Assembly (NCBI RefSeq): GCF_000219725.1
Contig: NC_015732.1
Coordinates: 62,001-126,000, forward strand
Direction of reading: 5' to 3'
DNA length: 64,000 nucleotides
Source: Gracilinema caldarium DSM 7334
GTDB lineage: Bacteria; Spirochaetota; Spirochaetia; Treponematales; Breznakiellaceae
In this document: piece after piece, positions 18,018 to 52,915 of the stretch
Layout of the letters: the number at the start of each line of letters is the position of its first letter
Numbering within the stretch: the stretch's first letter is position 1
The notes under the pieces: model-generated
What the model saw: the letters and a program-made list of their open reading frames with translations, nothing else
Databases searched by the model: none
Told to the model about the DNA's origin: nothing
Program-made: the position numbers and the translations under genes

Positions 18018-20819
18018 ATGATACAGAAACGGATAGCTGTTCTGCTTGCAGGCAGCTTGTTGGTAGGTCTCTTGTTTGGCTGTGCCAGCACGAAGGATGC
18101 TGCAGAGAAGCAACCTCAGGCAGCTGGCCCTGCATATCAGACCGTCGAAGCCGGAACTATTGAGAACATGGGGCACCCCAAGATGGATAAAATTATCCCT
18201 GCCCATGAAGCTCTAAAACCAGCATCTGATGAAATCGTTATTTATTACCTCAGAAACGATGCTAAATATGAGCCCTGGGGATTCTGGCTCTGGGCTGTTC
18301 CTGGCGGTGACGGCGCAACCGTATGGGATAAGTCTAAAAACCTTGAAGTTGTAGAAGGGGTAGGTTATCTGCGCTTTAAGAAAGACGGATCCACCTTTGG
18401 TGTAAAAACTGTTGGTGCCGATGGCCTCATGGGTCTCATCCCCCGAAAGGATGATGCCTGGGATAAGGACGGAAACGACGACCGGATTATCGATACCAAG
18501 GCTAGTAACGAATGGGTAGTGTTCCAGAACGATCAGAAAACCTATCCCTATGGCCCCTATGTGCCTACCATCGATACGGCCCGTCTTTTGTCTCAGACAG
18601 AAATTTTGATCGATTTTTCCGGCCGTTATGGTCTTTCTACAGAAAAGGGCGATAGCGGCTTTGTGGTCCAATATGCAGATGGAACTAAAACCCTCACGGT
18701 TCTGGATGCGGTAAATAATGCGGATCCGGAAAATAAGCTTAATAACTATACAAAACGGGTAAAGCTCATTTTGACGGAAGCGGCCCCTCTAGATGCGCCC
18801 CTCGTAGTATCCCATCCGAAATTTTTAGCCCCCGTTCCTGTGGATAGCGGAGCCCTGGCTGCATCGATGGCCGATTCCATTGTTCCACCTGAGGGTTACC
18901 AGCTCGGAGCCATATATAATGGAACTTCCAAATCGGTTGAATTCCGTCTGTGGACACCCTTTGCAAGCAAAGTTCAAGTACGGCTATATAAAAAGAGCCT
19001 TGCAGAAAAGGCTGACTATAGCCTGGAACTTTCCAAGGATGCTAAAACCGGTGTCTGGACCGGTACCTTTAATACGGTTGATCCGGATGGCCTTTTCTAT
19101 GAATATTCGGTCTTCTTTGGTAATAAAGAAAAGATTGCTCTTGATCCCTATGCCAAGAGCATGGATGCCTTTATTGGCAGCGGCCTTGGACGAGGTGCAA
19201 TCATCAATCCTGCTAAGGCTCAACCGATAGGCGGTTGGGAAGGCTATACCGATGTCCAGCTTGCAAAGCGGGAAGATGCCATTATCTACGAAATGTCCGT
19301 GCGGGACTTTACGATTTCCCCCGATTCCGGTGTCAAAGCCCGGCCTGGTTCGTACCTGGCGTTCATAGAAAAAATTCCCTATCTCAAATCCCTCGGTGTA
19401 ACCCATGTACAGCTTATGCCGGTGATGAATTTCTATTACACCGATGAAACGAAAACAGCCTATGAAGCGACAGGCCGTTCCAGCGATAACAACTATAACT
19501 GGGGGTACGATCCCCATAGCTATTTTACCCCTGAAGGATGGTATGCCCAGGACCCGAAGGACCCCTACAGCCGGGTTGTAGAACTGAAAACCCTGATTAA
19601 AGAACTGCATAAAGCTGGTATTGGGGTCATCCTTGATGTGGTTTATAACCATACGGCAAATACTGCTATTTTTGAAAATGTGGTTCCCGGTTATTATTAC
19701 CGGCGGGATAGCAAGGGTGGTTTTATCGGTCAATCCGGCTGTGGCAACGATGTAGCTACCGAACGGGTAATGGCAGGCCGGCTTATGCGGGATTCCCTGT
19801 ATTATTGGGTTGATGAATATAAGGTGGATGGTTTCCGCTTTGACCTCATGGGGCTCATCGATGCCAAGGCAATACTGAAAGCCCGGGAAGCCATTGCAAA
19901 GATTCCTGGCAAAGAAGATATCCTCTTCCAGGGCGAAGGCTGGAAAATGTACCGGGGTCCTGCTCTGGAAGTGATGGATCAGAACTACATGACCAAAACC
20001 AATGAAGTTTCAGTCTTTAATGATGAGTTCCGGGATATTATGAAAGGCGGCGGTATGGATGATAAGCGGAAGGGTTTTGTGACAGGCCGACCGATGAATA
20101 CAACCATGATTTTCAACAACCTGAAGGGCCAGCCCATGCTGAACTATAAGGCCGACGATCCCGGAGATTCGATGAATTACGTATCAGCCCATGACAACCT
20201 GACCCTGACGGACAACATCGCCTTTAATACGGGCCTTAATGCGAAGTATCCTGAAGAACGGGCAGAAATAGCTAAGCGGGCAAAGCTTGCCAATTTTATG
20301 GTGCTTACGGGGCAGCCGATTGCATTCCTTCATGGGGGCTGTGAACGGGGCCGGAGCAAGCCGAAGCTCAATTCAAAAAGCGAAGTTATCGGCGATTATG
20401 TCCACAACAGTTACGATTCATCCGATGACATTAACCAGTTTATCTGGAATGTCCCCAAGGAATACGATGCTATGGGCAAATGGGTCGCGGGCGTTATCGC
20501 TGTGCGGCGGGCAGAAGAGGGGCTCCGTATTGGAGATATGGCCACCATCGATGCAAGCATGAAACAGGTCCAACATGCGGACCAGTTATCCATGGGATGG
20601 ACCGTAACCTACAAGGGTACTACTCTGGTTATGATGGTGAACGCCAACTTTGATCAGGCCATGGATTTTAAGACCGGCCTTAACCTTGCAAATGCAACCG
20701 TATTGGTGGATGACGACGAAGCTTCACCTGCAGGTGTAACCCGGGTTTCCGGAATGACCATATCGGGCCAGACGGTAACCGTAGAACCTTTAACCGCAGT
20801 CATGCTGAAACTGAAATAA
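18018..20819 (+). CDS. pulA: Type I pullulanase, surface lipoprotein
   Basis: 933 residues. A signal peptide with lipobox LLFGC makes Cys22 the lipidated residue. About residues 70-200 resemble CBM41 (IVIYYLRNDAKYEPWGFWLW), a CBM48-like domain follows near 295-385 (VEFRLWTPFASKVQVRLY), then the GH13_14 barrel: YNWGYDP signature near 493, DVVYNH, nucleophile D in GFRFDLMG near 607, acid/base E in FQGEGW near 640, and SAHDNLTL near 724. It cleaves alpha-1,6 branches in pullulan, starch or glycogen outside the cell. Strong AGGAGGAG precedes the ATG. In one unit with the PfkB kinase and under the LacI-type operator. Confidence 0.93.
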   Translation: MIQKRIAVLLAGSLLVGLLFGCASTKDAAEKQPQAAGPAYQTVEAGTIENMGHPKMDKIIPAHEALKPASDEIVIYYLRNDAKYEPWGFWLWAVPGGDGATVWDKSKNLEVVEGVGYLRFKKDGSTFGVKTVGADGLMGLIPRKDDAWDKDGNDDRIIDTKASNEWVVFQNDQKTYPYGPYVPTIDTARLLSQTEILIDFSGRYGLSTEKGDSGFVVQYADGTKTLTVLDAVNNADPENKLNNYTKRVKLILTEAAPLDAPLVVSHPKFLAPVPVDSGALAASMADSIVPPEGYQLGAIYNGTSKSVEFRLWTPFASKVQVRLYKKSLAEKADYSLELSKDAKTGVWTGTFNTVDPDGLFYEYSVFFGNKEKIALDPYAKSMDAFIGSGLGRGAIINPAKAQPIGGWEGYTDVQLAKREDAIIYEMSVRDFTISPDSGVKARPGSYLAFIEKIPYLKSLGVTHVQLMPVMNFYYTDETKTAYEATGRSSDNNYNWGYDPHSYFTPEGWYAQDPKDPYSRVVELKTLIKELHKAGIGVILDVVYNHTANTAIFENVVPGYYYRRDSKGGFIGQSGCGNDVATERVMAGRLMRDSLYYWVDEYKVDGFRFDLMGLIDAKAILKAREAIAKIPGKEDILFQGEGWKMYRGPALEVMDQNYMTKTNEVSVFNDEFRDIMKGGGMDDKRKGFVTGRPMNTTMIFNNLKGQPMLNYKADDPGDSMNYVSAHDNLTLTDNIAFNTGLNAKYPEERAEIAKRAKLANFMVLTGQPIAFLHGGCERGRSKPKLNSKSEVIGDYVHNSYDSSDDINQFIWNVPKEYDAMGKWVAGVIAVRRAEEGLRIGDMATIDASMKQVQHADQLSMGWTVTYKGTTLVMMVNANFDQAMDFKTGLNLANATVLVDDDEASPAGVTRVSGMTISGQTVTVEPLTAVMLKLK

Positions 20820-37813: not shown

Positions 37814-37911
37814 AATACCATTACAAACTGAAGTTTCTAGTGGCACTCAGTAAATCTATTTTTATTGCCTTTCAAAAATGCTTAGTATACAATGAGCCTC
37901 CAGGAGGAACC

Positions 37912-39027
37912 TTGCATAATCTTGAGGGAGAAAATCCGGCCTATCTTTCCGAGCAGCTCATCACCTATATTGGGAATAAACGGGCCCTCTTATCCTTTAT
38001 CGCCCAGGGGCTCGACCTGGTTCGGGAGCGGCTTGGAAAGGACCGGATTACTGCCTTTGATGTTTTTTCAGGAAGCGGAGTGGTAGCCCGTCTCCTGAAA
38101 CGGTATGCTGAACGGCTTTATGTAAATGATATTGAAGCCTATTCATCTATCATCAATTCTTGTTACCTCGCCAATAAAAGCACCCTCGACTCTAAGGAAC
38201 TCGACCATTGGTACCATTGGCTCAAGGCACAGCTTACCGAAGATGCCCTACGCCCCGGTTTTATCAGCGAACTCTATGCACCCCAGTGTATGGAACAGGT
38301 ACAGCCGGGAGAACGGTGTTTTTATACCCCCCGAAATGCCTGGTATCTTGATACGGCCCGACAGCTTATCGAATTGGTTCCGGTCCGTCTGCAGTCCTTT
38401 TTTATCGGCCCCCTCCTGGCGGAAGCCTCGGTTCATGCAAATACCGCCGGTGTGTTTAAGGGATTTTATAAAGATGCCCATACCGGCCGCGGACAGTTTG
38501 GGGGTAAAAACCGGGATGCCCTGAGCCGTATCCTGGGACCCATCGAGTTACAACTCCCCGTGTTCAGCAACTTTAACTCAGAAGTACATATCTTCAGGCA
38601 GGATGCTAACAGCCTCATTCATCATATTGATGAAGTGGATCTGGCTTATATCGACCCCCCTTACAATCAGCATCCCTATGGGTCTAACTACTTTATGCTC
38701 AATCTCATTGCGGAATACCGCCGGCCCTTTGCTGTAAGCCCTGTATCAGGTATTCCGGTAGACTGGCAGCGGTCGAACTACAACAAACGGCACAGGGCTT
38801 TCGAGGCTTTTCAGGAGCTTGTTTCGTCCATAAGAGCCAGGTATCTTCTCATTTCCTTTAATTCCGAAGGTTTCATTACCCTCTCGGAAATGCTCGATCT
38901 ACTCCAGTGTGTTGGGAAAACCCAGGTGCTGGAAACGAAATATAACGCCTTCCGGGGCAGCCGAAACCTGAGGAACCGGCCGGTCCATGTGACTGAGTAC
39001 CTCTACCTGGTTGAGAAAAGCCGGTAA
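37912..39027 (+). CDS. DNA adenine (N6) methyltransferase, D12 class, orphan
   Basis: 371 residues from TTG at 37912, chosen because AGGAGG lies at 37902-37907; a GTG at 37840 has no ribosome site. Motif order is alpha-class: YIGNKRALLSFI (X), AFDVFSGSGVVARLL (I) near residue 48, and LAYIDPPYNQHPYGSNYF (IV, DPPY) near 247. It transfers methyl from SAM to adenine in a DpnIIA-like recognition site. No endonuclease adjoins it, so it may serve regulation or protection. Alone between the response regulator and the convergent debranching fusion. Confidence 0.85.
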   Translation: MHNLEGENPAYLSEQLITYIGNKRALLSFIAQGLDLVRERLGKDRITAFDVFSGSGVVARLLKRYAERLYVNDIEAYSSIINSCYLANKSTLDSKELDHWYHWLKAQLTEDALRPGFISELYAPQCMEQVQPGERCFYTPRNAWYLDTARQLIELVPVRLQSFFIGPLLAEASVHANTAGVFKGFYKDAHTGRGQFGGKNRDALSRILGPIELQLPVFSNFNSEVHIFRQDANSLIHHIDEVDLAYIDPPYNQHPYGSNYFMLNLIAEYRRPFAVSPVSGIPVDWQRSNYNKRHRAFEAFQELVSSIRARYLLISFNSEGFITLSEMLDLLQCVGKTQVLETKYNAFRGSRNLRNRPVHVTEYLYLVEKSR

Positions 39028-39033
39028 GCGGTT

Positions 39034-42000
39034 TCAGGGTTTCTGCTGGTAAAGGATAAGCGCTCCCTTGGCAGGAATCTCCAGCCTATGGTTTACCAGG
39101 GGGCCCTGGTCCGGTTCCCAGGTTTCGGCGGTGGCGCTGTTTGCTACAAGCCTCCAATCGCTATCGGGACCGGGTGCAGCCGGGATGGCCAGGGATACAG
39201 CTTCGGACCGGCTCGATGCGGCGATGAGCAGATGGTAGTGGCCCCGCTCCGCTTCATGTTCATCAAGCTGCCATGCGATAATGCCCTCCGAATCCTTGAT
39301 AAACTTCAGGGCCTTGCGGATCTCCGTTCCCGTTGCAAGCCGGAGTACCCTCAGAGTGGTCCTGAGATGAAGCAGATGCTGCACATAGTGTACAGTGGCG
39401 GTCTCTTCCCCGGCCCGTTCCCAGTTAAGGCCGTTCAGGAGGTCCCCTGCCTTGTATGAGTCGTGGCAGAACTGCCGCTTGGTTACCGGATCGGTAACGC
39501 ATTTATCAATCCCGCCGAGCCTGATCCATGCTTCGGGTACTTCTTTGGTTCGCAGGAATTCCATGCCGGCATGAAGCACCGGGATACCCTGACTGGTGAG
39601 CAGTAAGGTCATGGCAAGCCGCTGGAGCTGGGCATAATAGGCTCGATCCCGGCCCGGTTCCACAAGCTGGAGCTTGTCAAAGAGGGTAAAGTTATCATGT
39701 ACTTCCAGATAGTTGATGGATGCCCAGCTTCGTTCATCCCATGGAGCTGGATGTGCGGTCCCCGTTACCTGATGGTTATGGACCTGGTGATGATGGACTG
39801 CCCCCACGAGGCCGAATTTTACACTTTCCACCGTACGGCCGTCGTGAATCCAGCCCGGACCTGCGGCATCGAACACGGAGCCTTTTACGCCATCGCGGAA
39901 GGCATCGTTAAACATGCCGAAGTCTTGTAGTTTGTGAATGGTATGCTGGCTTGCCATTTCAAGCCTGGTTTTACCGGATTTTTTGTCTTGGTTGCCGCCG
40001 TACATATTCCAGCCTTCGCCATAAAGCAGAATGTCCGGTTTTATACCCCTGAGGGCTTTACTAATAGCCTGCATGGTCTCCACATCGTGAAGACCCATCA
40101 AATCGAAACGGAAACCTGAAAGTTTAAAAGCGGAAAGCCACCAGGAGAGGGTGTCGATCATATATTTCCGGAACATGTAGCGTTCGCTGGCCGTATCATC
40201 TCCGGCACCGGAATCCCGCCTGCCGCGGAAATAATAGCCTGGTACACAGGCTTCCAGGGCTGAGCGGCGCCGGTCCGGGACATGGTTATAGACCACATCC
40301 ATAATAACGCCTATGTCTGCCTGTCCCAGGGCTTGAACCAGTCGGCGCAGTTCCAGGAACCGGCTTAAACCATCGGCGGGATTTGTTGCATAGGACCCTT
40401 CCGGTGCAGCGTAGTTTCCCGGGTCGTAGCCCCAATTAAAGGCACCATGTTGCGGGCGTGATTGATATTCCGGATCTTTGACACGGCCTTCGTCCACAGA
40501 AACAAAGTCGAAGATGGGGAGCATCTGTATATGGGTAATTCCTAGAGCCCGGATATAGTCAAAACCTGTAGGCATTCCCTTGTATGCCGTGCCGGGATAT
40601 GCGGCACCCAGATAGGTGCACCGCTGTTCCTCCGGTCCCTGCCAGGAAGGATGGCTCGTGAGGTCTCGGATATGGGCTTCCCAGACGATTGCATCGGTCG
40701 GGGATGCGAGTGCGGGGGGGTGCCAGGTGTTCCATCCCTCTGGTTCAAGGCGCCGGGAATCCAGGATCATGCCCCGTTTCCCGTTGAGTCCCGCACTTTT
40801 TGCATAGGGGTCTATGGTTTCCCGGTCCAGACCGTGGATTCTCAGTCGGTAGGTGTAATAGACTCCGTGAAAATCGCCGTGGAGCCTCACGTGCCAGACC
40901 CCATGGTTCTGCCGGTACATACGGTGCACTGCCAGGGGCTCTTCTTGAAGGTCCCACTGTGACACCTTGTCTCCGGGGCCGCTGGCCATGGTTTCACCGG
41001 TGGCATCGGCAGTATAATCGTGGGCTACCGGGGTTCCCGATTTCCAGAGGAAGAGCTCTACTTCCGCGGCAGTAGGAGCCCAGATTTTAAAATCCGTATA
41101 GTAGGGGGTGCAAGAGGCCCCCAGTTCTTCGTCGGTGTGGAACTGCCGGGCAAATGCTTTTGAATCATACCAGGTGCGGAGGCTTTCGATGGGGCCCTTA
41201 TTGTAAAAACCATGGAGTATCTGTTGTTCGAGGTAATTCTTTTCCCGGCTGGGGCCATTAAAGGGCGGCAGTTCAGGACTGGCTTCCTGCAAGGCTCTGC
41301 CCGGCGAACGTTGACCGTGGAAGCCCATGTTCGAGTGGAGCCTGTCCTGCAGGCTGGGCAGGGGAGGGAGGTCACTGGCGGAAGCGAGGCTGTCAGGCAA
41401 TGTAAGGACGATCTCCTGGTGAGAGATGAGCTTTGCATTCAGCCCGGCAGATGATAGGGAGTCAGCAGTACCCGCAGTAGCGGATGGGCCAAAGAGGACG
41501 GTCAGCTCTGCCGGATCCTTTTCTCCCCGCTGGTCCCAGAGGAGCGAAAGACTGAAGTGTGCACCGGTTCTGCTGAGGCGCACCTGAAGCCGGCTTCCCT
41601 GTCCGAAGGACAGGGTGCCGGAGAAGCCCCATGGGGCTACAGGGGTCTGTTCAGCGTGATCCTTATGGCCATTTTGCACACCCTGAGGTGTCTGTACCGG
41701 CGGCAGTCGGGGACTACAGAGAATACAGCCCTCAGCGAGTCGGAACTGGATTCCCAGCCAGCCCTGCAGTCCGGTACGCACAAACTCAGAAACACTCCAT
41801 GCCTGGGCAAAGGTACCTGAATGCCGGGGAAGCCCGTCGGCGTCCAGCAGGGCATGGAGATTTTCGCTTAAGGTCCCGACTGCCGCATCATCCATTATTT
41901 GGCGGGCCAGTTCCTGCTGGAGCCTCCAGGCCGCTGCGTTCTGACCGAACATAAGAAGAGCCTGGATGGTAAAGCCCGCATTCCAGCCCCAGATGGTCCC

Positions 42001-43896
42001 GTTATGGTACGCCGCATCCTTGTGGTAGAGGGGATGCCCATCATGGTGGGGATGGAAATAGGGATCCTGCTGGGAAAGGCTTGCAACCCCATAGGGATAC
42101 ACAAGCTCTTTGTAAACGTCGGCCAGCACGAAGGCCTGGATATCCCTTGGCAGCAGGGCCTCTTCTTCGGGGAGGATTGAGGGAACGGTGATCGCCAAAA
42201 GTGCATTGGGCCTGCTGCGAAGATCCGGCTCTACGGGGCTTCTTGCTTCCGGGTCAGCGGGATCTAAAAGCCGGTCCGCAAGCCGCCGATGTTCCGGATA
42301 CCAGAAGTGAGTTACAAAGGCCCTGCGTAGTTTTTCCGCGTGGGTACGGTAGTTTTCAGAGCGGGTAAGATCATTGGCAAGCCTGGCAATCCGCTCACCA
42401 CAGCGCAGGGCGGTGTAAAAGAGGGCCTGCACTTCTACAGCCCGGTCGCTCCGTTCGGACCAGGGCGCCTTACCGCGGATCCGGGCATCCATCCAGGTAT
42501 CCGCAGGTCCATGGGTTAAAAAACCGTACTGGTCACAGCGGGTTAGATCTGCCTCCAGGGCCCGGTCCACAAAGGGTTTTATAGACAGGGCAAAGGCATG
42601 GTCGCCGGTATACTGAACATATTCCCATACCTCCCTGATAAACCAGGGAGTCCCATCGACGGTGTTAAAAATGACATCTTCGGGATTGCGCCAGCGGTTC
42701 GGAATGCGTCCGTAGTTGGGACTGGCCGGATCCTGGTCCTGCCGTTCAGCAAAGGTCGCAAGGACTTCCCGGGCCGCATCGAATTGGCCTGTTGCGAGGA
42801 GTATCCCCGGCAGGGCGATAAAGGTATCCCGGCCCCAGTTGTCCCGGAACCAGGGAAGTCCCGCCCAGATACCCAGCCCGTATTCTCTGGTTACCAGAGT
42901 CCAGCCGGAAAAGGCCGCCCATGCAAGGGCCTGGTCGAAGCGCTTGTCGCCGGAGCGAAACGAGAAGCCATGGAAAAACTGTTCTATTTTAGATTGATGA
43001 AGGGAGCGGCCGTTCTGGCACACCAGTTCCTCTGCTTTGGCGCAGGCCCCGGCAGAATCCTCCGCCCAGGCCATATACACCTCAGTGCAGCCGGGGGGCG
43101 CTGTACTTGGGGTACTCTGGGGGTGATGTGCGCTGGCGGGGGTTGTGTCGGCAGGGCCTCCGCTGGCAGGGGGTGCGCTGGCCGGGACATTGCTGGTGGG
43201 GCTACCGCTGGCCTGGCCGCCGATGGCGGATGTTGCGCTGGCGGGGGTTGCGTCGGCAGGGCCTCCGCTGGCAGGGGGTGCGCTGGCCGGGACATTGCTG
43301 GTGGGGCTACCGCTGGCCTGGCCGCCGCCGGCGGGGCCTATGATGAGGTACAGGCCGTAGTCTTCAGGTATCGCAACATGGCTATGGATTTCCTGTATGG
43401 TGAGGGGATACTCTGAAGCAAGGGCCAGGGCTTCGGAGGAGGGTTCAATTTCATCGCGGTACCCCATTTTTTTCTTGCTAGGGCCCTTTTCTGCTTCCCG
43501 ATATACCAGGTAAACGGTCTTGCCCTGAACCGTTTCTCTTTTTTCTTTCCATGCCGAACCGGTTTTGGGGAGCAGGATAACACAGGTTGATGAAAAGCTC
43601 ATCCAGAAGGCGCTGGAGCCAAGTAAAAGCGCCCCTTCCACCTGATGTTCATCAACCTGAATGGATATTTCACCGGGAATGACCGACAGGCTTCTTTGTT
43701 TGAAAGTTGGAAGGCCCTCTTTGTCAGGTATGGTCAGGTCTTTAAGCCGGCAGTAATTGCCATGAACATAACCAGCTCCTTTTCCAAACTCGCTGGAATA
43801 TATATCAATATAGCCCCCGATCTGATCAGCCCAGGCAATACGCCGACTGCTGCCAGCAGGAATGAAATAGTGTAAAGCATTGATAAAATTATCCAT
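39034..43896 (-). CDS. Debranching fusion: amylo-alpha-1,6-glucosidase (GDE) + type I pullulanase
   Basis: 1620 residues from ATG 43896 (GGAG seven bases before it; TTG at 43908 is the alternative). No signal peptide: cytoplasmic. Residues 1-190: GDE N-terminal beta domain. About 195-290: Ala/Pro/Ser/Gly linker with a 35-residue tandem repeat. About 300-760: GDE catalytic (alpha/alpha)6 domain (PWFRDNWGRDTFIALPG, GTIWGWNAG). About 940-1620: CBM48 (DFKIWAPTAAEVELFLW) and a GH13_14 barrel with FNWGYDP near 1153, nucleophile D in GFRFDLMG near 1264, acid/base E in YGEGWNMY near 1293 and EVHDNFTL near 1400. Both parts attack alpha-1,6 bonds; they probably clear branched maltodextrin stubs of different length. 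Divergent from the alpha-amylase gene. Confidence 0.92.
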   Translation of the reverse strand: MDNFINALHYFIPAGSSRRIAWADQIGGYIDIYSSEFGKGAGYVHGNYCRLKDLTIPDKEGLPTFKQRSLSVIPGEISIQVDEHQVEGALLLGSSAFWMSFSSTCVILLPKTGSAWKEKRETVQGKTVYLVYREAEKGPSKKKMGYRDEIEPSSEALALASEYPLTIQEIHSHVAIPEDYGLYLIIGPAGGGQASGSPTSNVPASAPPASGGPADATPASATSAIGGQASGSPTSNVPASAPPASGGPADTTPASAHHPQSTPSTAPPGCTEVYMAWAEDSAGACAKAEELVCQNGRSLHQSKIEQFFHGFSFRSGDKRFDQALAWAAFSGWTLVTREYGLGIWAGLPWFRDNWGRDTFIALPGILLATGQFDAAREVLATFAERQDQDPASPNYGRIPNRWRNPEDVIFNTVDGTPWFIREVWEYVQYTGDHAFALSIKPFVDRALEADLTRCDQYGFLTHGPADTWMDARIRGKAPWSERSDRAVEVQALFYTALRCGERIARLANDLTRSENYRTHAEKLRRAFVTHFWYPEHRRLADRLLDPADPEARSPVEPDLRSRPNALLAITVPSILPEEEALLPRDIQAFVLADVYKELVYPYGVASLSQQDPYFHPHHDGHPLYHKDAAYHNGTIWGWNAGFTIQALLMFGQNAAAWRLQQELARQIMDDAAVGTLSENLHALLDADGLPRHSGTFAQAWSVSEFVRTGLQGWLGIQFRLAEGCILCSPRLPPVQTPQGVQNGHKDHAEQTPVAPWGFSGTLSFGQGSRLQVRLSRTGAHFSLSLLWDQRGEKDPAELTVLFGPSATAGTADSLSSAGLNAKLISHQEIVLTLPDSLASASDLPPLPSLQDRLHSNMGFHGQRSPGRALQEASPELPPFNGPSREKNYLEQQILHGFYNKGPIESLRTWYDSKAFARQFHTDEELGASCTPYYTDFKIWAPTAAEVELFLWKSGTPVAHDYTADATGETMASGPGDKVSQWDLQEEPLAVHRMYRQNHGVWHVRLHGDFHGVYYTYRLRIHGLDRETIDPYAKSAGLNGKRGMILDSRRLEPEGWNTWHPPALASPTDAIVWEAHIRDLTSHPSWQGPEEQRCTYLGAAYPGTAYKGMPTGFDYIRALGITHIQMLPIFDFVSVDEGRVKDPEYQSRPQHGAFNWGYDPGNYAAPEGSYATNPADGLSRFLELRRLVQALGQADIGVIMDVVYNHVPDRRRSALEACVPGYYFRGRRDSGAGDDTASERYMFRKYMIDTLSWWLSAFKLSGFRFDLMGLHDVETMQAISKALRGIKPDILLYGEGWNMYGGNQDKKSGKTRLEMASQHTIHKLQDFGMFNDAFRDGVKGSVFDAAGPGWIHDGRTVESVKFGLVGAVHHHQVHNHQVTGTAHPAPWDERSWASINYLEVHDNFTLFDKLQLVEPGRDRAYYAQLQRLAMTLLLTSQGIPVLHAGMEFLRTKEVPEAWIRLGGIDKCVTDPVTKRQFCHDSYKAGDLLNGLNWERAGEETATVHYVQHLLHLRTTLRVLRLATGTEIRKALKFIKDSEGIIAWQLDEHEAERGHYHLLIAASSRSEAVSLAIPAAPGPDSDWRLVANSATAETWEPDQGPLVNHRLEIPAKGALILYQQKP
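43130..43327 (+). repeat. 105-bp tandem repeat encoding the Ala/Pro linker
   Basis: Two nearly identical 93-bp copies begin at 43130 and 43235 (105-bp period, 35 codons) and differ at one base (T or C in TTGYGTCGG). On the coding minus strand each encodes GGQASGSPTSNVPASAPPAS and GGPAD(A/T)TPASA. High G+C and identity suggest recent duplication. Confidence 0.9.
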
Positions 43897-43907
43897 AAAA
43901 TGCTCCA

Positions 43908-43955
43908 AAACCGGTTTAGTTATGATATACTAGCCCCAGAATTCTGCATAAGCAA
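43908..43955. promoter_or_regulatory. Divergent promoter region with LacI-type operator
   Basis: AAACCGGTTT (43908-43917) is a palindrome. For the minus-strand fusion gene, TTGCTT (43955-43950), 17 bases and TAGTAT (43932-43927) form a promoter whose start lies just before the operator. On the plus strand TATGAT/TATACT (43921-43931) are possible -10 boxes for the amylase, with no good -35. One regulator could govern both genes. Confidence 0.6.
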
Positions 43956-43986: not shown

Positions 43987-45696
43987 ATGAATCTTTTAGT
44001 TCTAGGTCTCCTATCAATGATTATTTCCTGGATCAGGCCAGCAGTGCTTGAAGCTCAGGACCTCCCTTGGTGGAAGGATGCTTCTGGCCCTGCATATCAG
44101 GTACTGGTGTATTCCTTTGCCGATTCGGATGGAAACGGGTATGGAGACCTGAAGGGTCTTACTCAGGCGCTGGATTATTTGAATGATGGGAATCCGGCTA
44201 CCTATTCGGATTTGAACATTTCGGCCATCTGGCTTTCGCCGGTTAATCCGGCCAGTTCATACCATGGGTATGATGTAAAGGATTATAAGGCGATAGACCC
44301 CAAACTGGGAACGATGGAAGACTTTGATACCCTGATTAGAGAAGCCCATAAGCGGGGTATTAAGATCATTATGGACATGGTATTTAATCATACTTCCCGG
44401 GAACATCCCTGGTTCCTGGAGGCGATGAAGTCCGCCTCCAGTCCCTATGTAAACTACTACCGGACCAAACAAAACGGCGTTTCCTATGGGGCAAGCGGAA
44501 TGGGCCGCTTTTACAAATATACCCGGCCCGATGGATCTGTGTTTGAATACTTTTCCGCCTTCTGGGAGGGTATGCCGGATCTGAACCTGGATAATACCGA
44601 TGTGGTCAATGAACTAAAGGATATCCTCGCCTTCTGGCTGAACCGCGGGGTCGATGGCTTCCGCTTTGATGCGGCTAAACATGCCTTTGACCCGAACGAA
44701 ATGCCCTCAGGGACTCCAACCCTGGCTTTGAATAAAACCTTCTGGAATGACCTCCGGCGCTCTGCCCGGCGGGTAAAACCGGATGTCTACTTTATTGGCG
44801 AGGTGCTCACGGAAAATCTGGCCGAAGTGACAGCCTACACCGGTGTGTTCGATGGCCTCTTTGATTTTCCCTCCGCACGGCAGGTCATTGATGCGGTCCG
44901 GCGGATGAGTGGAACCGGTTTTATTCAGGCTTATCAGAACATTTACAGCCAATACAGCCGAATATCGGCTTTTCAGAGTGCTCCCCTTTTATCTAACCAT
45001 GACCAGGACCGGTACATCAGTTCTCTTTTAACGAGTATGAGTCTGGATGCAGTTAAGGGCCTCCAGGTGGAAGCCGGTGATACAGAAGTGGTGCGGAGTG
45101 CCAAAGCCTTTGCATTAACCAAGGCAAAAATGGCAGCCTCCATCTATCAGACCCTGCCGGGACTCCCTTATATCTACTACGGCGAAGAGCTGGGGATGAC
45201 CGGGCGGCGTTATAAAAATGATGATGTGGCCCGCCGGGATGCCTTTAAGTGGAATGATACAGGGACCCTGCCCACGGTAACCTGGCTGCAAAAAAGCAAT
45301 AAATTAGAACCGAGCCAGAACAGCCTGACCGCCTCAGCAGAAAGCCAGATGAAGGACCCGGGGAGTCTTTTGCGGCATTATCAAAGTTTGGCAGCTCTGC
45401 GCCAGAACAGCTCGGCCCTCAGGCAGGGGACCTTTGCGGCGCCCTCCTGGCCGGGCTTTAATTCGGGGTACCTGCTTGCCTGGCTCAGGGAAAGCGACAC
45501 CCAGCGGGTGCTGGTACTGCATAACCTGGACAGTTTACCCTTTGTCGCTAAGGTCCCTGAAGGGGTCCGCTTTGTAGCCCTCTGGAATAGCCAGCAGGGC
45601 TTCCTGGATGAAAAGTCCCGCCCAAGTTTACAAAGCGGCGTAGAACTCAGGCTGGAACCAGCCCAATCGGCGGTATACGAAGTGCTGAATCCTTAG
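43987..45696 (+). CDS. Exported alpha-amylase (GH13)
   Basis: 569 residues. Signal peptide LLVLGLLSMIISWIRPAVLEA, cleavage likely before QDLPWW. No lipobox, so it is periplasmic or secreted. GH13 regions: VFADSDGNGYGDL-type start, MDMVFNH, DGFRFDAAKHAF (nucleophile D near 226), YFIGEVLTE (acid/base E near 271), LSNHDQDR (D near 338). QGLPYIYYGEELGM-like and a C-terminal beta domain follow. It produces maltodextrins for MalEFG. GGAGG lies seven bases before the ATG. Convergent with the DUF1189-like gene. Confidence 0.93.
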   Translation: MNLLVLGLLSMIISWIRPAVLEAQDLPWWKDASGPAYQVLVYSFADSDGNGYGDLKGLTQALDYLNDGNPATYSDLNISAIWLSPVNPASSYHGYDVKDYKAIDPKLGTMEDFDTLIREAHKRGIKIIMDMVFNHTSREHPWFLEAMKSASSPYVNYYRTKQNGVSYGASGMGRFYKYTRPDGSVFEYFSAFWEGMPDLNLDNTDVVNELKDILAFWLNRGVDGFRFDAAKHAFDPNEMPSGTPTLALNKTFWNDLRRSARRVKPDVYFIGEVLTENLAEVTAYTGVFDGLFDFPSARQVIDAVRRMSGTGFIQAYQNIYSQYSRISAFQSAPLLSNHDQDRYISSLLTSMSLDAVKGLQVEAGDTEVVRSAKAFALTKAKMAASIYQTLPGLPYIYYGEELGMTGRRYKNDDVARRDAFKWNDTGTLPTVTWLQKSNKLEPSQNSLTASAESQMKDPGSLLRHYQSLAALRQNSSALRQGTFAAPSWPGFNSGYLLAWLRESDTQRVLVLHNLDSLPFVAKVPEGVRFVALWNSQQGFLDEKSRPSLQSGVELRLEPAQSAVYEVLNP

Positions 45697-45714: not shown

Positions 45715-46581
45715 TTAGCTCGAGCGAGCACTGCGATACCGGCTGGTGTAGAGCATGATGACCCGGATACCCGCAAGGAGCGAGTAGGCTAACCATAAAA
45801 AGGGAGCCTTAAAAGCAGGAATAAAAAGCCCCACAAGACCGATTAAAAAGGCTGGCCCCGCCATGATGGCGGCGGCCATTTTTATACCCTCCAGGGGCTT
45901 TAGTTTTACTGAGCTTTGGTTTCCCGGCGCCTTTCCGTAGACTGCAAAGGAAAGCATCATACCTAAAATGACAACAAAGGCTAGGTTTTGCACAAGCATC
46001 AATAAACCTAAGGTCAGCAATATAGAAGGAATAGATGAAAAGGCTGCGGTATACAGCACCCCTTCTATCAATTGGGACAGGGTGCGGCGGTTTTCGGCGG
46101 CCCTTTTAATGGTGTCCGATGAGAGGCCATTAAAGGGTTGTAAGCTGGAACTCACCTGGGTTCCGGTTGAGCCATTGCGAATGAGCAGGGTAGAAGTTCC
46201 GATTTGTAAAACCCGCTGTGTATCCCCAGTATGATCCCTATTGTGCCCCAGTTCAACAATCCAATCCTTTGCAGTCAGAGCCTCCGGGGCGGGTGGATCT
46301 AGTTGTAAGGCTCCATTGGCGATGGTAAAAGAAAATGGAGCCTGGGCTAAGGCTTCGAAGGCGTAGCCTAAACCGGGATACTGGTTTGTTTGTGAAGCTA
46401 TGTTTGCTTCGCGCCAACGGTTTGCCCCAAAGGGTAGGCTTATTGCGATAGAAGATGCAAGAAAGAGCACAATAATAAACAGCCAGTGAAAAGAAGCACA
46501 GTCCTGGGCGGCTGAGTCGGACCACCAGGCCCGGGCGGCGGTCCAGAGTATGGGTGTTGTATGAGTCTTTTTTTGTTTCAT
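45715..46581 (-). CDS. DUF1189-like membrane protein
   Basis: 288 residues. An N-terminal span (WLFIIVLFLASSIAISLPFG), a periplasmic domain of about 120 residues, and four C-terminal spans (SIPSILLTLGLLMLVQNLAFV, VILGMMLSFAVYG, AAAIMAGPAFLIGLVGLFI, LWLAYSLLAGIRVIMLY). This is the layout of DUF1189 proteins, which sit beside maltodextrin transporters in several bacteria. It follows malG but beyond a terminator, so it depends on readthrough or an own promoter. Role in sugar uptake is inferred; family assignment is moderate. Confidence 0.6.
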   Translation of the reverse strand: MKQKKTHTTPILWTAARAWWSDSAAQDCASFHWLFIIVLFLASSIAISLPFGANRWREANIASQTNQYPGLGYAFEALAQAPFSFTIANGALQLDPPAPEALTAKDWIVELGHNRDHTGDTQRVLQIGTSTLLIRNGSTGTQVSSSLQPFNGLSSDTIKRAAENRRTLSQLIEGVLYTAAFSSIPSILLTLGLLMLVQNLAFVVILGMMLSFAVYGKAPGNQSSVKLKPLEGIKMAAAIMAGPAFLIGLVGLFIPAFKAPFLWLAYSLLAGIRVIMLYTSRYRSARSS

Positions 46582-46675: not shown

Positions 46676-47590
46676 TTAGCCCTTTTCAGCACCGGAGGCC
46701 ATGCCGTACACAATAAAGCGTTGCATGTAGAACTGAACCAGGGTGATGGGGGTTGCCAGTACCAGAGCCCCAGCCATGAAGTTCAGCGGGTTATAGTACA
46801 GGGTGATCATCGGATCCGTAAGCCGGTACAGGAAGATCGCTACGGTCTGGTTCTGCATGTTCAACAGCTTATTAGGCAACATGTAGTCCATCCAGGGAGC
46901 CATAAAGGCGTTCACCGCAATAAAGCCGATGATAGGCGTAGACAGCGGCAGAACAATTTTGGTGAATATCTGGGTTTTGCTTGCCCCATCGATAATGGCC
47001 GCTTCATCAATAGAAAGCGGAATGGACCGCATGTATCCCCGGATAAGATAGGTGTTATAGGGGATAGCTCCGGCTGCATAGATAAATACCAGCATTATGG
47101 GTTTGTTAAGCCATCCAAAGGTCCGGTAAATCATGAAGAGGGCGATCATTCCCATAAAGGAAGGGAACATCTGGAGCAGGAGGAAGGAAACAAGAATAGG
47201 CTTTTTACCACGGAACTTAAAGCGGCTGAATACAAACCCAGTAATGGTGGTGAAGAGCACCACCGTAAAGGTGTTTACAATCGCAATCTGCAGGGATCGC
47301 AGGAAGGCTGCCACAAAGTCCGAGTACTGAGCGCCGCTTTGGCTTTTATAGGTAAACAGGTATTCATAGTGCTCCAGGGAAAATTTGCTGAAATCCGGGA
47401 TCAGGGGGACTCCAGAAAGCAGTTTTCCCTTGGTAAGGGATGCAGAAATCATCCATAAAATAGGAATAAGCACTGTAAAGCATGTGAGGGTTAACCACAG
47501 GTAGTGGAGAAAGCGCAAAATGGAATTGCGCATCAGTGCTGCCTGGGTCTGTCTCCCCTTTACTAAGGTTAAAGGCCGGTTTTCGCTCAT
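46676..47590 (-). CDS. malG: Maltodextrin ABC permease, MalG-type
   Basis: 304 residues with six spans. EAA loop EAAIIDGASKTQIFTKIVLP near residue 205. N-terminal LTCFTVLIPILWMISASLTKGKL and the C-terminal tail IVYGMASGAEKG are like E. coli MalG, whose last residues insert into the ATPase. Its ATG overlaps the malF stop. With MalF it forms the membrane channel for maltodextrins from MalE. No malK in the window. Confidence 0.93.
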   Translation of the reverse strand: MSENRPLTLVKGRQTQAALMRNSILRFLHYLWLTLTCFTVLIPILWMISASLTKGKLLSGVPLIPDFSKFSLEHYEYLFTYKSQSGAQYSDFVAAFLRSLQIAIVNTFTVVLFTTITGFVFSRFKFRGKKPILVSFLLLQMFPSFMGMIALFMIYRTFGWLNKPIMLVFIYAAGAIPYNTYLIRGYMRSIPLSIDEAAIIDGASKTQIFTKIVLPLSTPIIGFIAVNAFMAPWMDYMLPNKLLNMQNQTVAIFLYRLTDPMITLYYNPLNFMAGALVLATPITLVQFYMQRFIVYGMASGAEKG

Positions 47591-49452
47591 TCGCCTGCCT
47601 CCTCTTGGAATGATTTAGATTTAAGCAGGTTGTATACCGAGAAGCCGCCGACGATAAAGAATATCAAGATGGAATACACGGCGGCCACATTATACTGCTC
47701 AAAATCCTTGGTAAAGGACAATTTGTAAATCCAGGAAATGAGAATATCTGTTTGTCCTGGAAGGGCAGAACCAACGATGCGCATACTATCCGGTATTTTT
47801 GCCGGATCCCAGGTTGGGCCGCCACCGGTGAGGAAGTAGACCGCCCCAAAGTTATTAAAGTTAAAGCTGAAGGTCATGATGAGGGCTGGCATAGTAGCGG
47901 CAAGAACCATTGGCCAGGTTATATACTTAAAGCGCTGCCAACCGCTTGCCCCATCGATAGCAGCTGCTTCATAGAGTTCCCGGGGAATGGTTGAAAGGGT
48001 ACCAATAATCATCATCATGTGGTAGGGAGCTCCGAGCCACAGGTTAACCAGCATTACCACAAAACGGGCAAGTCGTCCATTATAAATTGGCTGGAACCAG
48101 AATATTGGCTGATCAGGTTTGCCCTGCAGACCAATGTTAAATAAGAAATTGGAAACCGGTTCCATGAGTCCAGTGGCGAAGAGAAACTGGTTTACAAGAC
48201 CATCCTTGTCAAAGGCGTTGCGGAACATCATAAGGCTGACGAGAGAGGGAATTGCCCAGGGGAGTATCATGAGGGTGCGCCAGACCCGTTTATGGTTCAC
48301 CAAGGGTGACTCAACGATCATGGCATTAAAGAAGCCAAGGCCATAGACCGTGAAAGAGGACATAAGCGCCCAAAGTATGGTCCAGAGGAAAATCTGACCA
48401 AAAATAGAAAGCCATCCCGGGTCCATGGCAAGGAAGCCAAAGGTGCGGAACCCTGCCCACTCAATAAGCTTGGCACCAAGCTTTATCTTATAGGTGTAGT
48501 TAGTAAATGCAAGAAAGAAGGTAAAGAAAATAGGAATAACCGTAAAAAAGAGGATCATCACAAAGGCTGGGGCTGAGACTACATACACATACAGGCTATC
48601 CCAAATTCTGAACCAGAATTCCTTGGAACTTTCTCGAACACCGGTTTTCTGAAAGGCAATATTTGTTTTATAGGCATCGATCACACCTAAAACCCAGAGG
48701 GTGATAAATACTACGAGGACAGCCATAGCAATGAGGCCGTTCCCTAACAGTACGATTGAGTTGTCGGCGGTAAGCCAGGGCGTTACTTTGTTATAGAGTT
48801 CAATTACTCCACCAGCATATTCTGCATCGATAGGGAGCCGTCCCAGGGTTACTAGGCCCCAGACGCCGCGGGTAAAGAAACCGCCAAAATCCCGGAAGGG
48901 ATAATGTTTTTCGCTTTCTATAAAATAATTAGGATACAAATATTGGGCTGTAAAATAATTGGCCTGACGGTCTCCCATTTGAGACTCTGCCTCGATGTCC
49001 GCAAAGGGGTCCCCAGAACTGGTATCCGCAGCAACATCTGCAAAGGGATCGCCAGAGTCTGAGGCCTCTGCAGTAGTATCGGCAAAGGGGTCTCCGGAAC
49101 CAGCCGCTTCGGTAGTGTCTTCCTCTGCTGCAAAAAGGGCCCCTAATGAATCGGCCTGGTTAAGTTCAGCTCCGGTGGTATTGTTGTGGAGCCCATTGGT
49201 TGATTGATTTGCAATTAATTCAGCGGGAACTTTCCCGTTCATCAATCTGATAAATCTATCCCATTGGGAAGTAGATAACTCTATAGTCACAAGTAACAGA
49301 GGAACCATAAACCAGGCAATAGCCTTGGTTTTTTGTCTGTTCAGCAATTGTCCCAATCCAGGCAAGAGGAGGGACGCGGCCGCTGTTGCATAGGCAGAGC
49401 CTTTGTTAATCTGTCCCGATTCGGCCGTGGACATCCCTGAATCCTTTTCCAT
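47587..49452 (-). CDS. malF: Maltodextrin ABC permease, MalF-type, with acidic repeat insertion
   Basis: About 621 residues from ATG 49452 after GGAGGAGGAG; an earlier in-frame start at 49557 lies in the terminator. Larger than usual MalF (about 510). After the first spans comes a periplasmic loop with an acidic insertion near residues 105-155: GDPFAD occurs three times (GSGDPFADTTAEASDSGDPF, then ADVAADTSSGDPFADIEAES). Then six core spans and the EAA loop ELYEAAAIDGASGWQRFKYITWP near residue 520. The insertion is absent from MalF of other bacteria as far as I know; its role is not known. Confidence 0.92.
   Translation of the reverse strand: MEKDSGMSTAESGQINKGSAYATAAASLLLPGLGQLLNRQKTKAIAWFMVPLLLVTIELSTSQWDRFIRLMNGKVPAELIANQSTNGLHNNTTGAELNQADSLGALFAAEEDTTEAAGSGDPFADTTAEASDSGDPFADVAADTSSGDPFADIEAESQMGDRQANYFTAQYLYPNYFIESEKHYPFRDFGGFFTRGVWGLVTLGRLPIDAEYAGGVIELYNKVTPWLTADNSIVLLGNGLIAMAVLVVFITLWVLGVIDAYKTNIAFQKTGVRESSKEFWFRIWDSLYVYVVSAPAFVMILFFTVIPIFFTFFLAFTNYTYKIKLGAKLIEWAGFRTFGFLAMDPGWLSIFGQIFLWTILWALMSSFTVYGLGFFNAMIVESPLVNHKRVWRTLMILPWAIPSLVSLMMFRNAFDKDGLVNQFLFATGLMEPVSNFLFNIGLQGKPDQPIFWFQPIYNGRLARFVVMLVNLWLGAPYHMMMIIGTLSTIPRELYEAAAIDGASGWQRFKYITWPMVLAATMPALIMTFSFNFNNFGAVYFLTGGGPTWDPAKIPDSMRIVGSALPGQTDILISWIYKLSFTKDFEQYNVAAVYSILIFFIVGGFSVYNLLKSKSFQEEAGE
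48990..49110 (-). repeat. Three-copy GDPFAD-coding repeat in malF
   Basis: Three units of roughly 45, 51 and 42 bp encode GDPFAD followed by acidic Thr/Ala/Ser stretches. Imperfect at DNA level, conserved at protein level, inside the first periplasmic loop of MalF. Confidence 0.8.
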
Positions 49453-49512
49453 GTAAACTCCTCCTCCCGCAAGGTCTTTTGAAAGTCCTCTACGGTCGAG
49501 CTTATAAAATGT

Positions 49513-49543
49513 AAAAAAGGAGCTTCCGCAGGGAAAGCTCCTT
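49513..49543 (-). terminator. Intrinsic terminator between malE and malF
   Basis: On the minus strand AAGGAGCTTTCC (49543-49532) pairs with GGAAGCTCCTT (49527-49517), followed by TTTT. It lies 39 bp after the malE stop, the same arrangement as in transporter 1. Confidence 0.85.
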
Positions 49544-49581
49544 GGTAAGAACATCAAACGATGCGGAACATTTGATGAAAA

Positions 49582-50925
49582 CTATTTATTGTTTTCTGCG
49601 TACCACTTTTTATACAAATCTATGATAGTAGCCTGGGCTTGAGCAGGGGTCTTTTCACCATCCCAGACAGCTCGGAGTTCCAGGTTAAGTCCGATACCAT
49701 AGTAACCGTCCATGGCCTTCTTTTTGGGATTGGCGGGGAGGGTAACGGTGGGTTCCGGATAGTTAAAGGCGAAGGCTGCAGACATTTCTGCCTTGTTGGG
49801 ATCCTTGCGGTAGTTGGGAGTATTGGTTGCTTTAGCTTTAAGAGCAGGAATATATGCGGAGTTGTCTACCATAGTCTGCATACCATCCTTGGTAAAGAGG
49901 ATCCGATAGAGCTCGTGGGCAGCAGAAGGATATTTTGTAAAGCCATTGATGACCCATCCCTTGGTTTTTACGAAGGGGGTAAGGCGGATACCTTTCCAGG
50001 TGGGCATGGGGCCGAACTTAATGTCATAGCCGCCCTTGGTTTCGGCACCATTGACATCCATCCAGGTACCAACCAAGAAGAAGGGTGCAGTTTCGTTGTT
50101 GAGGGCATCGTCCCAGCGCCAGGTCATGGATGCACCGGGGGTCTTAACACCGTTAGCTTCGACGCTGATCATGGCATCGGCAGCGGCTTTGATAAATTCA
50201 AGACCGGCGCGGAAGCCATCCTGATCAAAGCCGGCTTTATCCGCTTCTTTGGTGGGGAAAATTTTCCAGCCTCCTGCAGTGAGGTTAGAGTAGCCGGACC
50301 AGATTTCATCCAGACACATGGGGTATACGATATTAACCGGTTTCCCCTTATAGGTGGGGCGGTTGGTCTGCCATTTCTTGGATAGAGCAAAAATTTCTTC
50401 CCAGGTGTCAAAAGCATCGGGAAGCCCGTCATTATTTTTATCGGTGGTATCTAGCTTAAGGGCTTCCATCATGGTCTTGTTCCATGCAAAGGCCATACCG
50501 TCGTAGGCGACAGGAACAAACTTAATGGTCTTGCTGTTAGCCCCGCTATAGAAAGGTTCCATCGCAAAGCTGGTAGCAGCTTTGGTAATGACCGCATCCA
50601 GAGCTAAGAGAGACTGTTCATTACGGCTTACTTCCCCGTCGATTACCAGGGCTACATCGGGAGCTTCACCCTGCAAAGCGGTAATTTGGTCCGTACCACC
50701 AGCGGCTCCGAAGTTTACATATTCTACTGCACCGACTGCTTCGGGATGCAGCTTATCCCAGAGAGCGACAATAGCCTTACCCAGAATGTCGCTATCCACA
50801 CCAAGACGTATCTTAGCTCCCTTTTCAACCTGGAACTGATTGCCCCGCCATACTGCCTTGGATTGGGCAAAGGCACCACCCGCAACAAGACTGATACCCA
50901 GTACCAGTGCTACGAATCGTTTCAT
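49582..50925 (-). CDS. malE: Maltodextrin-binding protein MalE-type
   Basis: 447 residues. Sec signal FVALVLGISLVAGGAFA with cleavage before QSK; no lipobox cysteine. Family 1 solute-binding layout with LALDAVITKAATSF, VAYDGMAFAWNKTMM and DIKFGPMPTWKG, as in maltose-binding proteins. AGGAGG sits five bases before the ATG. Strong promoter upstream and a terminator downstream predict high expression relative to malFG. Being next to amylase and cyclomaltodextrinase genes, maltodextrin is the likely ligand (inference). Confidence 0.9.
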   Translation of the reverse strand: MKRFVALVLGISLVAGGAFAQSKAVWRGNQFQVEKGAKIRLGVDSDILGKAIVALWDKLHPEAVGAVEYVNFGAAGGTDQITALQGEAPDVALVIDGEVSRNEQSLLALDAVITKAATSFAMEPFYSGANSKTIKFVPVAYDGMAFAWNKTMMEALKLDTTDKNNDGLPDAFDTWEEIFALSKKWQTNRPTYKGKPVNIVYPMCLDEIWSGYSNLTAGGWKIFPTKEADKAGFDQDGFRAGLEFIKAAADAMISVEANGVKTPGASMTWRWDDALNNETAPFFLVGTWMDVNGAETKGGYDIKFGPMPTWKGIRLTPFVKTKGWVINGFTKYPSAAHELYRILFTKDGMQTMVDNSAYIPALKAKATNTPNYRKDPNKAEMSAAFAFNYPEPTVTLPANPKKKAMDGYYGIGLNLELRAVWDGEKTPAQAQATIIDLYKKWYAENNK

Positions 50926-51094: not shown

Positions 51095-52915
51095 ATGAAC
51101 GGTGCCGCGATCTATCACAGAGCAACAGATTCGTTTTGTTATTCCCCCGATGGGACAAGTCTTGTCATCCGATTGCAGAGTGCGGTTGATGATATAGTAT
51201 CGATTCAGCTATGGGCTGGGGATCCCCATGATTGGGGACGGCGGCCGGAAGCGGACGGCGGTGCCTGGCATTGGCGGTGTGCTTCGCAGGAACTCCAAAA
51301 AATTGGCAGTGACGGTATGCGGGACTTTTGGGAAATTCGCTGGACCCCGCCTTACAAACGGGCCCGGTATTTTTTTAGGATTACCTTTAGAGACGGAAGC
51401 CGCTATGACTACGGCGAAAAGGGCCTCCTCCCCACCAGCCCCAAAGCGGAGGCCAGCCCCACTGGCGATTACTGGAACGCTTTTGTGTTTCCCTATATTA
51501 ACGAGGTTGATGTATTTAAGGCCCCCGATTGGGTTGCAGGAACAGTCTGGTACCAAATTTTTCCCGAACGGTTCCGGAACGGAAATAAGGCCAATGACCC
51601 CGCTGGCACCAAGAGCTGGAAGCGGGGCCCCGTAACGAACCATGAATGGTACGGCGGCGACCTGCAGGGCATTATCGACGGTCTGGACCACATTGCAAGC
51701 CTGGGCTGTACCGGCATCTACCTGACGCCTATTTTTGCTTCCCCCTCGGTTCACAAGTACGATACGGAGGACTACCTCCGGATCGACCCCGCCTTTGGCA
51801 CCGACGAAGACTTAAAAAATCTGGTACAGGCCTGCCATACCCGGGGCATACGGCTCATGCTGGACGCGGTGTTCAACCACTGCGGGAAAACCTTCGGCCC
51901 CTGGCTCGATGTGGTCGAAAAGGGCGAAGCCTCGGCCTATAAAGACTGGTTCCACATCAATGCATTCCCCCTCTTCCCCAAGGGTAAAGACACCGGAGAC
52001 AGCCGGGACGCCAATTTCGAAACCTTTGCCTTTACGACCCGGATGCCCAAACTCAACACCGCAAACCCCGAAGTGCGGGAATATTTACTCAAGGTCGCGG
52101 AACGGTACATACAGGAATTTGATATTGATGGATGGCGGCTCGATGTTTCCAATGAAATTGACCATGTGTTTTGGCGGGAGTTCCGTAGGCGGGTAAAGGC
52201 CCTGAAACCGGATGCCTACATCGTAGGCGAAATATGGCACGATGCCATGCCCTGGCTCAGGGGGGACCAGTATGATGCGGTGATGAACTATCCCTTTGGG
52301 AATGCCATTGTAGACTTTTTGCTCACCAAAGACTGGAGCAAAACCGCCAGTGATTTTGTGTACCGGATTTCAGAAATATCCTTTATGTATCCCGATAGGG
52401 TGATCCGATCGGCTTTTAACCTGTTGGATTCCCATGATACGGACCGCATTGTCCACCTCTTGGGCGGCCGGGCCATGGCCAAACTTGCCCTGACCATGCT
52501 CTTTACCCTGCCGGGCTCTCCCTGCATCTATTACGGCACCGAATATGCCCTGGAAGGGGGCGGAGACCCGGACAACCGCCGCTGTATGATTTGGGACCCC
52601 ACTCCGGAAGAAGAAGCCTTTGCCCGCTTTGTCCGCTCCCTCATAGCCCTGCGCCGCGAGCACTGGTCCCTCTGTGCCGACGGCAGGCGGCAGTATGTAA
52701 CTGATCCTGCACACCCAGGTTTTTTGGGTATAACCATACACCATGATACGGATAGGCTCAGGGTGCTCATCAACCGGGATGAGAAACCGATACCAGCCAC
52801 GGTCTGGAAGGGCCTTTTAGGTCTTGACCCCTCAGAGTCGGTGCAGAACCTGCTTGCCGAGAGCCCCCTGGGACCTGAGGATGCACTTCCCGGGCGAGGT
52901 GCGGCGGTGTTCTGA
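51095..52915 (+). CDS. Cyclomaltodextrinase / neopullulanase (GH13_20)
   Basis: 606 residues, no signal peptide: cytoplasmic. CBM34-type N-domain (1-130; VSIQLWAGDPHDWGRRPE), then the barrel: WYQIFPERFRNGN, LMLDAVFNHCG, GWRLDVSNEIDHVFW (nucleophile D near 349), VGEIWHDAMPWL (acid/base E near 378), LLDSHDTDR (near 446), and a C-domain. GH13_20 enzymes hydrolyse cyclodextrins, pullulan and maltodextrins to maltose. AAGGAG precedes the ATG by seven bases. Divergent from malE with which it probably shares function; the 169-bp gap holds both promoters. Confidence 0.92.
   Translation: MNGAAIYHRATDSFCYSPDGTSLVIRLQSAVDDIVSIQLWAGDPHDWGRRPEADGGAWHWRCASQELQKIGSDGMRDFWEIRWTPPYKRARYFFRITFRDGSRYDYGEKGLLPTSPKAEASPTGDYWNAFVFPYINEVDVFKAPDWVAGTVWYQIFPERFRNGNKANDPAGTKSWKRGPVTNHEWYGGDLQGIIDGLDHIASLGCTGIYLTPIFASPSVHKYDTEDYLRIDPAFGTDEDLKNLVQACHTRGIRLMLDAVFNHCGKTFGPWLDVVEKGEASAYKDWFHINAFPLFPKGKDTGDSRDANFETFAFTTRMPKLNTANPEVREYLLKVAERYIQEFDIDGWRLDVSNEIDHVFWREFRRRVKALKPDAYIVGEIWHDAMPWLRGDQYDAVMNYPFGNAIVDFLLTKDWSKTASDFVYRISEISFMYPDRVIRSAFNLLDSHDTDRIVHLLGGRAMAKLALTMLFTLPGSPCIYYGTEYALEGGGDPDNRRCMIWDPTPEEEAFARFVRSLIALRREHWSLCADGRRQYVTDPAHPGFLGITIHHDTDRLRVLINRDEKPIPATVWKGLLGLDPSESVQNLLAESPLGPEDALPGRGAAVF

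Follow-up and report, generated by a model that had tools for sequence, protein, structure and literature searches.

As reviewed elsewhere, amylo-1,6-glucosidase cuts single-glucose side chains only, and pullulanase requires at least two glucoses in each of two 1,6-linked chains (PMC3443597). This bears out the statement of an initial annotation of the DNA considered here that the two enzymes differ in the branch length they accept, the limits being one glucose versus two or more. Among debranching enzymes with two sites, the yeast GDE has been studied best; in that of Candida glabrata (CgGDE), two sequentially acting sites lie more than 50 Å apart; the enzyme has no preference for intramolecular transfer, and single-site mutants regain full activity when mixed (PMC4837477). 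Prokaryotic GDE_C proteins were described in 2014 as having the arrangement GDE_N-GDE_C, without direct functional evidence (PMC4236520). Here we analysed a stretch of 64,000 nucleotides from Gracilinema caldarium DSM 7334 (NC_015732.1, positions 62,001 to 126,000; hereafter the window), in which a GH133 glucosidase and a type I pullulanase are encoded as one protein. The fusion is real, conserved and of single origin. The enzyme families that it joins are both known; their combination and order are new in the searched literature, and the function of the fused protein is predicted from sequence. In the openly searchable literature (subscription papers and CAZy were outside the scope) we found no report of a GDE-pullulanase combination.

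The open frame is unbroken from 39034 to 43908 on the minus strand, and an ATG at 43896 with GGAG six bases upstream yields a protein of 1620 residues, of which residues 1 to ~899 are glucosidase and ~909-1620 pullulanase (Table 1). Using Pfam, we obtained a GDE_C match (PF06202) with an E-value of 2.9e-62 and 211 bits against a gathering score of 21, a CBM_48 match at residues 989-1032 and an alpha-amylase domain from residue 1106. Among the NCBIfam models, TIGR02104 (type I pullulanase) scored 568 bits, above its cut-off of 504.5, and TIGR01561 (archaeal GDE) matched residues 341-646 with 137.7 bits, below its cut-off of 364. Together with the open frame, the GDE_C, CBM_48 and TIGR02104 matches confirm what the initial annotation had proposed, namely that one frame holds a GDE-type glucosidase and a CBM48 pullulanase. 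Its further label for the second half, GH13_14, stands as far as the type I pullulanase model and the motifs carry it. No Pfam match to the hDGE domains (hDGE_amylase) or to GDE_N (PF12439) was found in the fused protein, but the N-terminal domain still superposes on the structure 7vma together with the barrel, and as modelled neither enzyme is cut short, the N-terminal beta domain of the glucosidase being present as well. By eye, no signal peptide was seen in the fused protein. The two halves may be separated proteolytically inside the cell.

Table 1. Features of the fused gene and of the window around it (residue numbers refer to the 1620-residue protein).
Feature	Window position	Strand	Basis
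Fused gene, GH133 glucosidase and type I pullulanase, 1620 residues	39034..43896, including stop codon	-	ORF and profile matches
N-terminal beta domain, residues 10-280	43057..43869	-	AF2 model; superposes on 7vma together with barrel
Pro/Ala/Ser-rich insert, residues ~191-264	43105..43326	-	Repeat units; predicted disordered
GDE_C (alpha/alpha)6 glucosidase domain, residues 338-707; D357, D470 (acid), E678 (putative base)	41776..42885	-	Pfam, alignments, fold
Equivalent of C-terminal tail of stand-alone GDEs (..NYLxxIIxxGxYN), residues 873-899	41200..41280	-	Alignment
Junction, residues 900-908 (KGPIESLRT), from GDE tail to pullulanase start	41173..41199	-	Alignment
Type I pullulanase (TIGR02104), residues 915-1590; NWGYDP motif, D1265, E1294, D1401	39127..41154	-	NCBIfam, motifs, fold
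Divergent GH13 enzyme, 569 aa, conserved neighbour	43987..45696	+	Pfam, locus comparison
288-aa protein of no known family, kept beside MalG-like gene in f1, f3 and f4	45715..46581	-	Without NCBIfam match
Sugar ABC transporter	46676..50925	-	Profile matches, locus comparison
MalG-like permease	46676-47590	-	Below curated cut-off
MalF-like permease	47587-49557	-	Below curated cut-off
Putative binding protein, 447 aa	49582-50925	-	Position only; without Pfam or NCBIfam match
Cyclomaltodextrinase/neopullulanase-like GH13, 606 aa, conserved neighbour	51095..52915	+	Profile matches, locus comparison
Second pullulanase, 933 aa; PUD, CBM48, GH13, SpuA_C; not fused	18018..20819	+	Domains

The fusion occurs in four families of the order, referred to as f1 (the family of the source genome) to f4. 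In f1, f3 and f4 the fused gene adjoins the divergent GH13 gene, the gene for the 288-residue protein and the sugar-transporter permeases; beyond the permeases lie, where the contig reaches, the putative binding protein and the cyclomaltodextrinase-like GH13. Some f2 genomes have, of these genes, the cyclomaltodextrinase-like one alone next to the fused gene. An f2 genome in which the two genes are unfused (G203; L038:1905-11281) has a same-strand run made up of a pullulanase, three transporter genes, a 293-aa protein and a GDE, the separate pullulanase and GDE standing at opposite ends with the transporter genes between them. At its other side, the fused gene of the window meets a gene for a D12-class adenine methyltransferase (37840-39027), tail to tail and six bases apart, which occupies the same position in two genomes of the same genus (L123, L125). 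The source genome has one strong GDE_C gene and one further pullulanase, which, judging from its domains, is probably exported. The anaerobic Spirochaeta (Treponema) caldaria H1T lives by fermentation, with starch and maltose among its substrates (PMC3739177).

From these data we infer an activity, a substrate, a location and a benefit for the fused protein: it is probably a cytoplasmic bifunctional debranching enzyme for imported maltodextrins, the two halves of which would work in parallel. The type I pullulanase half would remove side chains of at least two glucoses from imported branched maltodextrins, and the GH133 half would remove the single-glucose stubs that pullulanase cannot cut, thereby releasing glucose. 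The linear chains would then pass to the GH13 enzymes encoded next to it, to the GH77 transferases and to phosphorylase. In a mixture of imported dextrins, the two activities would thus proceed side by side on different branches, and the presumed benefit of the fusion would be equal amounts of, and one address for, two enzymes that are needed together. Alternatively, the enzyme could serve mainly the turnover of stored glycogen, as the presence of GlgA and GlgP in the genome would allow, but we consider this unlikely: a full GlgX and two GH77 proteins are encoded there as well, so that the fused enzyme does not have to act on stored glycogen, and in three families the gene stands beside a sugar ABC transporter and a cyclomaltodextrinase.

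The initial annotation had stated that catalytic residues are visible in both halves. By alignment they are in place, the base of the glucosidase being assigned from its position. D357 aligns with D1078 of CgGDE and D470 with its general acid D1241 (catalytic residue roles and mutants of CgGDE: PMC4837477). E678 is invariant in 25 of 25 aligned proteins; the residue alignment to CgGDE E1492 stops short of it, and its position suggests that it is the putative general base and the counterpart of E1492. In the pullulanase half, the NWGYDP motif falls within residues 1153-1159, D1265 corresponds in the alignment to the residue replaced in 6jhh (D350A) and D1401 to that replaced in 6jhi (D470A), and E1294 sits in a GEGW motif. 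An AF2 model of residues 1-803 (pLDDT 81.6, pTM 0.85) has 7vma as its best structural match (Z 35.8 over 527 residues, rmsd 4.2) and reaches a Z of ~30 with CgGDE; in a model of residues 300-1499, the first half matches 7vma at Z 29.8 and the second half matches the pullulanase of Paenibacillus barengoltzii at Z 35 over 481 residues. Against the bifunctional reading stands that the GH133 half is ~19-22% identical to solved relatives and scores below the TIGR01561 cut-off; it may work like a GDE but falls outside that subfamily. The Pro/Ala/Ser-rich insert sits in the N-terminal domain of this half, is encoded by two 105-bp units that are almost identical and show a 15-bp sub-period (window 43125-43334), and is missing from relatives.

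An alternative to two active halves is that one of them serves mainly as a binding domain or scaffold, the protein being a pullulanase whose GH133 domain holds the glucan or acts on another alpha-glucoside. The (alpha/alpha)6 fold is common to enzymes of many specificities, and the yeast main-chain contact R1123 is missing, with I409 read from the alignment at its position. Two fused relatives also fit such a role, since their glucosidase half evolves fast and their pullulanase half is kept: G514 (L138:5638-10032), the only fused copy in which the putative base E678 is replaced, by glycine, and G508 (L139:373-4725), in which the GDE half is strongly diverged. In these two genomes, decay of one half is possible. 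For the protein in the window we regard a scaffold role as improbable, as it keeps D357, D470 and E678 and its GH133 domain is under strong purifying selection. The dN/dS of the GH133 domain is ~0.11-0.12; comparison of the window with G378 gave 0.11 for the GH133 part and 0.12 for the pullulanase part, values that are rough because synonymous sites are near saturation, and both catalytic parts are under purifying selection. Wherever the sequence of a fused copy extends over the site, D357, D470 and the pullulanase residues are all retained.

How the two halves are joined bears on whether they could hand substrate to each other. The C-terminus of stand-alone GDEs is a tail with the pattern ..xNYLxxIIxxGxYN, and in the fused proteins this tail is followed within ~10 residues by the start of a type I pullulanase, WYDSxxFxxxFxTDxxLGA. 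In the window protein, the tail motif occupies residues 887-899 and the pullulanase start residues 909-927, with the junction at 900-908 between them. Since tail and start lie only ~10 residues apart, the two proteins are fused end to end, with no new domain in between. A conserved 'linker', SPELPPFNGPSREKNYLEQQIL, was considered as new sequence and rejected, as stand-alone GDEs have it as their C-terminal tail. In the two-domain model, residues ~855-903 have low pLDDT, and the junction is predicted to be flexible; the pTM of this model is only 0.54 and its alignment shallow, so that no rigid arrangement of the halves can be derived from it.

The initial annotation had suggested that the fusion channels limit dextrins from one active site to the next of the same molecule. 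Both sites do belong to the same chain, and relatives have conserved the fusion, but the idea does not hold up well and we consider it very unlikely. The substrate ranges of the two enzymes are complementary, which means that they act on different branches and that neither directly makes the substrate of the other; pullulanase takes the whole side chain and leaves no stub, so the ranges neither overlap nor form a series (PMC3443597). CgGDE, with its lack of intramolecular preference, does not hold the intermediate (PMC4837477). The predicted flexibility of the junction and the low overall pTM of the model also speak against channelling, and in relatives one half has been lost (Rectinema) or damaged (the exchange of E678 in G514). 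Two activities in parallel remain the reading that we prefer.

To describe the distribution of the fusion, 394 genomes of the order were searched, with E < 1e-30 taken as a strong GDE_C match. Such a match was present in 38 of the 394, and in 24 genomes of the four families, the source genome included, the pullulanase half was found at the GDE_C locus: five in f1, 12 in one frame plus Brucepastera parasyntrophica (G618) in f2, four in f3 and two in f4. Looking for other proteins with both halves, as the initial annotation had proposed, thus uncovered 23 further genomes, 22 of them with the fusion in one frame; the fused copy of one f3 genome (G312) is truncated by the contig end. In Brucepastera (L140:7835-12570 / L048:9224-13959), a frameshift in the pullulanase part splits the fused gene, which may reflect a sequencing error or a pseudogene. 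An artefact in the window, be it a missed stop, a frameshift or an assembly join, can be set aside, as nothing in the source genome points to one, the Brucepastera copy alone is frameshift-broken, the genome is a single contig of 3,239,340 bases and the same fused frame recurs in 22 other genomes. Beyond the order, Pfam searches of a phylum sample of 296 genomes yielded no GDE-pullulanase fusion, and none was among the matches of one pattern-limited, non-exhaustive scan of 84,980 species. In a metagenome-assembled genome of the Aeromonadaceae, the N-terminal extension of a GDE_C protein carries an AMPK1_CBM domain, which binds glycogen (L060:8441-11749).

Phylogenies of the two halves point to one event. 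The pullulanase tree contained 23 fused rows, which group in a single clade (100*) that includes none of the stand-alone pullulanases, and in the GDE tree all 24 fused rows fall inside a starred set of 26, together with two other rows. Independent fusions in different families were rejected for the sampled set on these grounds. One of these two, L147, breaks off where its contig ends. The other, an 832-aa protein of Rectinema subterraneum (L142/L049), ends just past the GDE tail, and its gene shares its neighbours with the fused genes; besides a 956-residue pullulanase next door, the Rectinema genome gave no match near the type I cut-off. A tree in which the fused GDE halves form a clade that shuts out L147 and Rectinema was rejected (AU p 0.003), which implies that both rows derive from fused ancestors. 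On this sequence evidence, it is clear that Rectinema lost the pullulanase half after the fusion. The fusion would accordingly have a single origin early in the order, at which a complete GDE gene became continuous with a complete pullulanase gene; at least one lineage would later have lost the pullulanase half.

These results have consequences for annotation as well as for enzymology. Under the curated NCBIfam models, the entire protein would be called 'type I pullulanase' and its first 900 residues would go without a name, so that such genomes may look as if they had no GH133 enzyme. Fusion and operon tie the GDE_C half to a pullulanase and a maltodextrin transporter, and these ties independently support the view that this branch of GDE_C proteins acts on alpha-1,6 branches. 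The fusion also offers a natural case in which to test whether a tether between two debranching activities is an advantage.

Each half has stand-alone counterparts. Along its entire length, the first half is matched best by the structure of the amylo-alpha-1,6-glucosidase of Thermococcus gammatolerans (7vma), but that enzyme is a separate protein of 620 residues with 19% identity, and the window protein, unlike it, lacks a GDE_N match and stays below the TIGR01561 cut-off. The second half, which passes the TIGR02104 cut-off, resembles the type I pullulanases of Paenibacillus barengoltzii (6jeq) and Bacillus subtilis (AmyX, 2e8y) in the NWGYDP motif, in the catalytic triad and in fold (Z 35), and those enzymes differ in standing alone, not behind a GDE. 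Other bacterial chains that hold two alpha-glucan enzymes, the GlgX/4-alpha-glucanotransferase PRK14510 and the Neisseria MalQ-GlgB fusion, combine different enzyme pairs. Another GH13/GH133 fusion exists within the phylum, a 1475-aa protein of the spirochaete G131 (L036:5695-10122), in which a GH13 of another type, with a GLGE_C match, comes first and the GDE is of the GDE_N type (order GH13, GLGE_C-like, GDE_N, GDE_C); it is a separate event, with the domain order of the eukaryotic GDE.

The eukaryotic enzyme (CgGDE, 5d06) offers a further parallel. In both proteins a GH13 barrel and a GH133 (alpha/alpha)6 barrel share one chain and jointly remove alpha-1,6 branches, as predicted in the case of the window protein, and the glucosidase folds correspond. 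It is conceivable, if rather doubtful, that the spirochaetes evolved a single-chain debrancher of their own, of separate origin from the eukaryotic GDE and with the domains reversed, which would strip alpha-1,6 branches of every length without a glucanotransferase and whose tether would bring a measurable gain over the two separate enzymes on densely branched dextrins. The order and the partner set the two systems apart: in the eukaryotic GDE the GH13 part lies N-terminal to GDE_C and is a 4-alpha-glucanotransferase, whereas here it lies C-terminal and is a direct-acting type I pullulanase.
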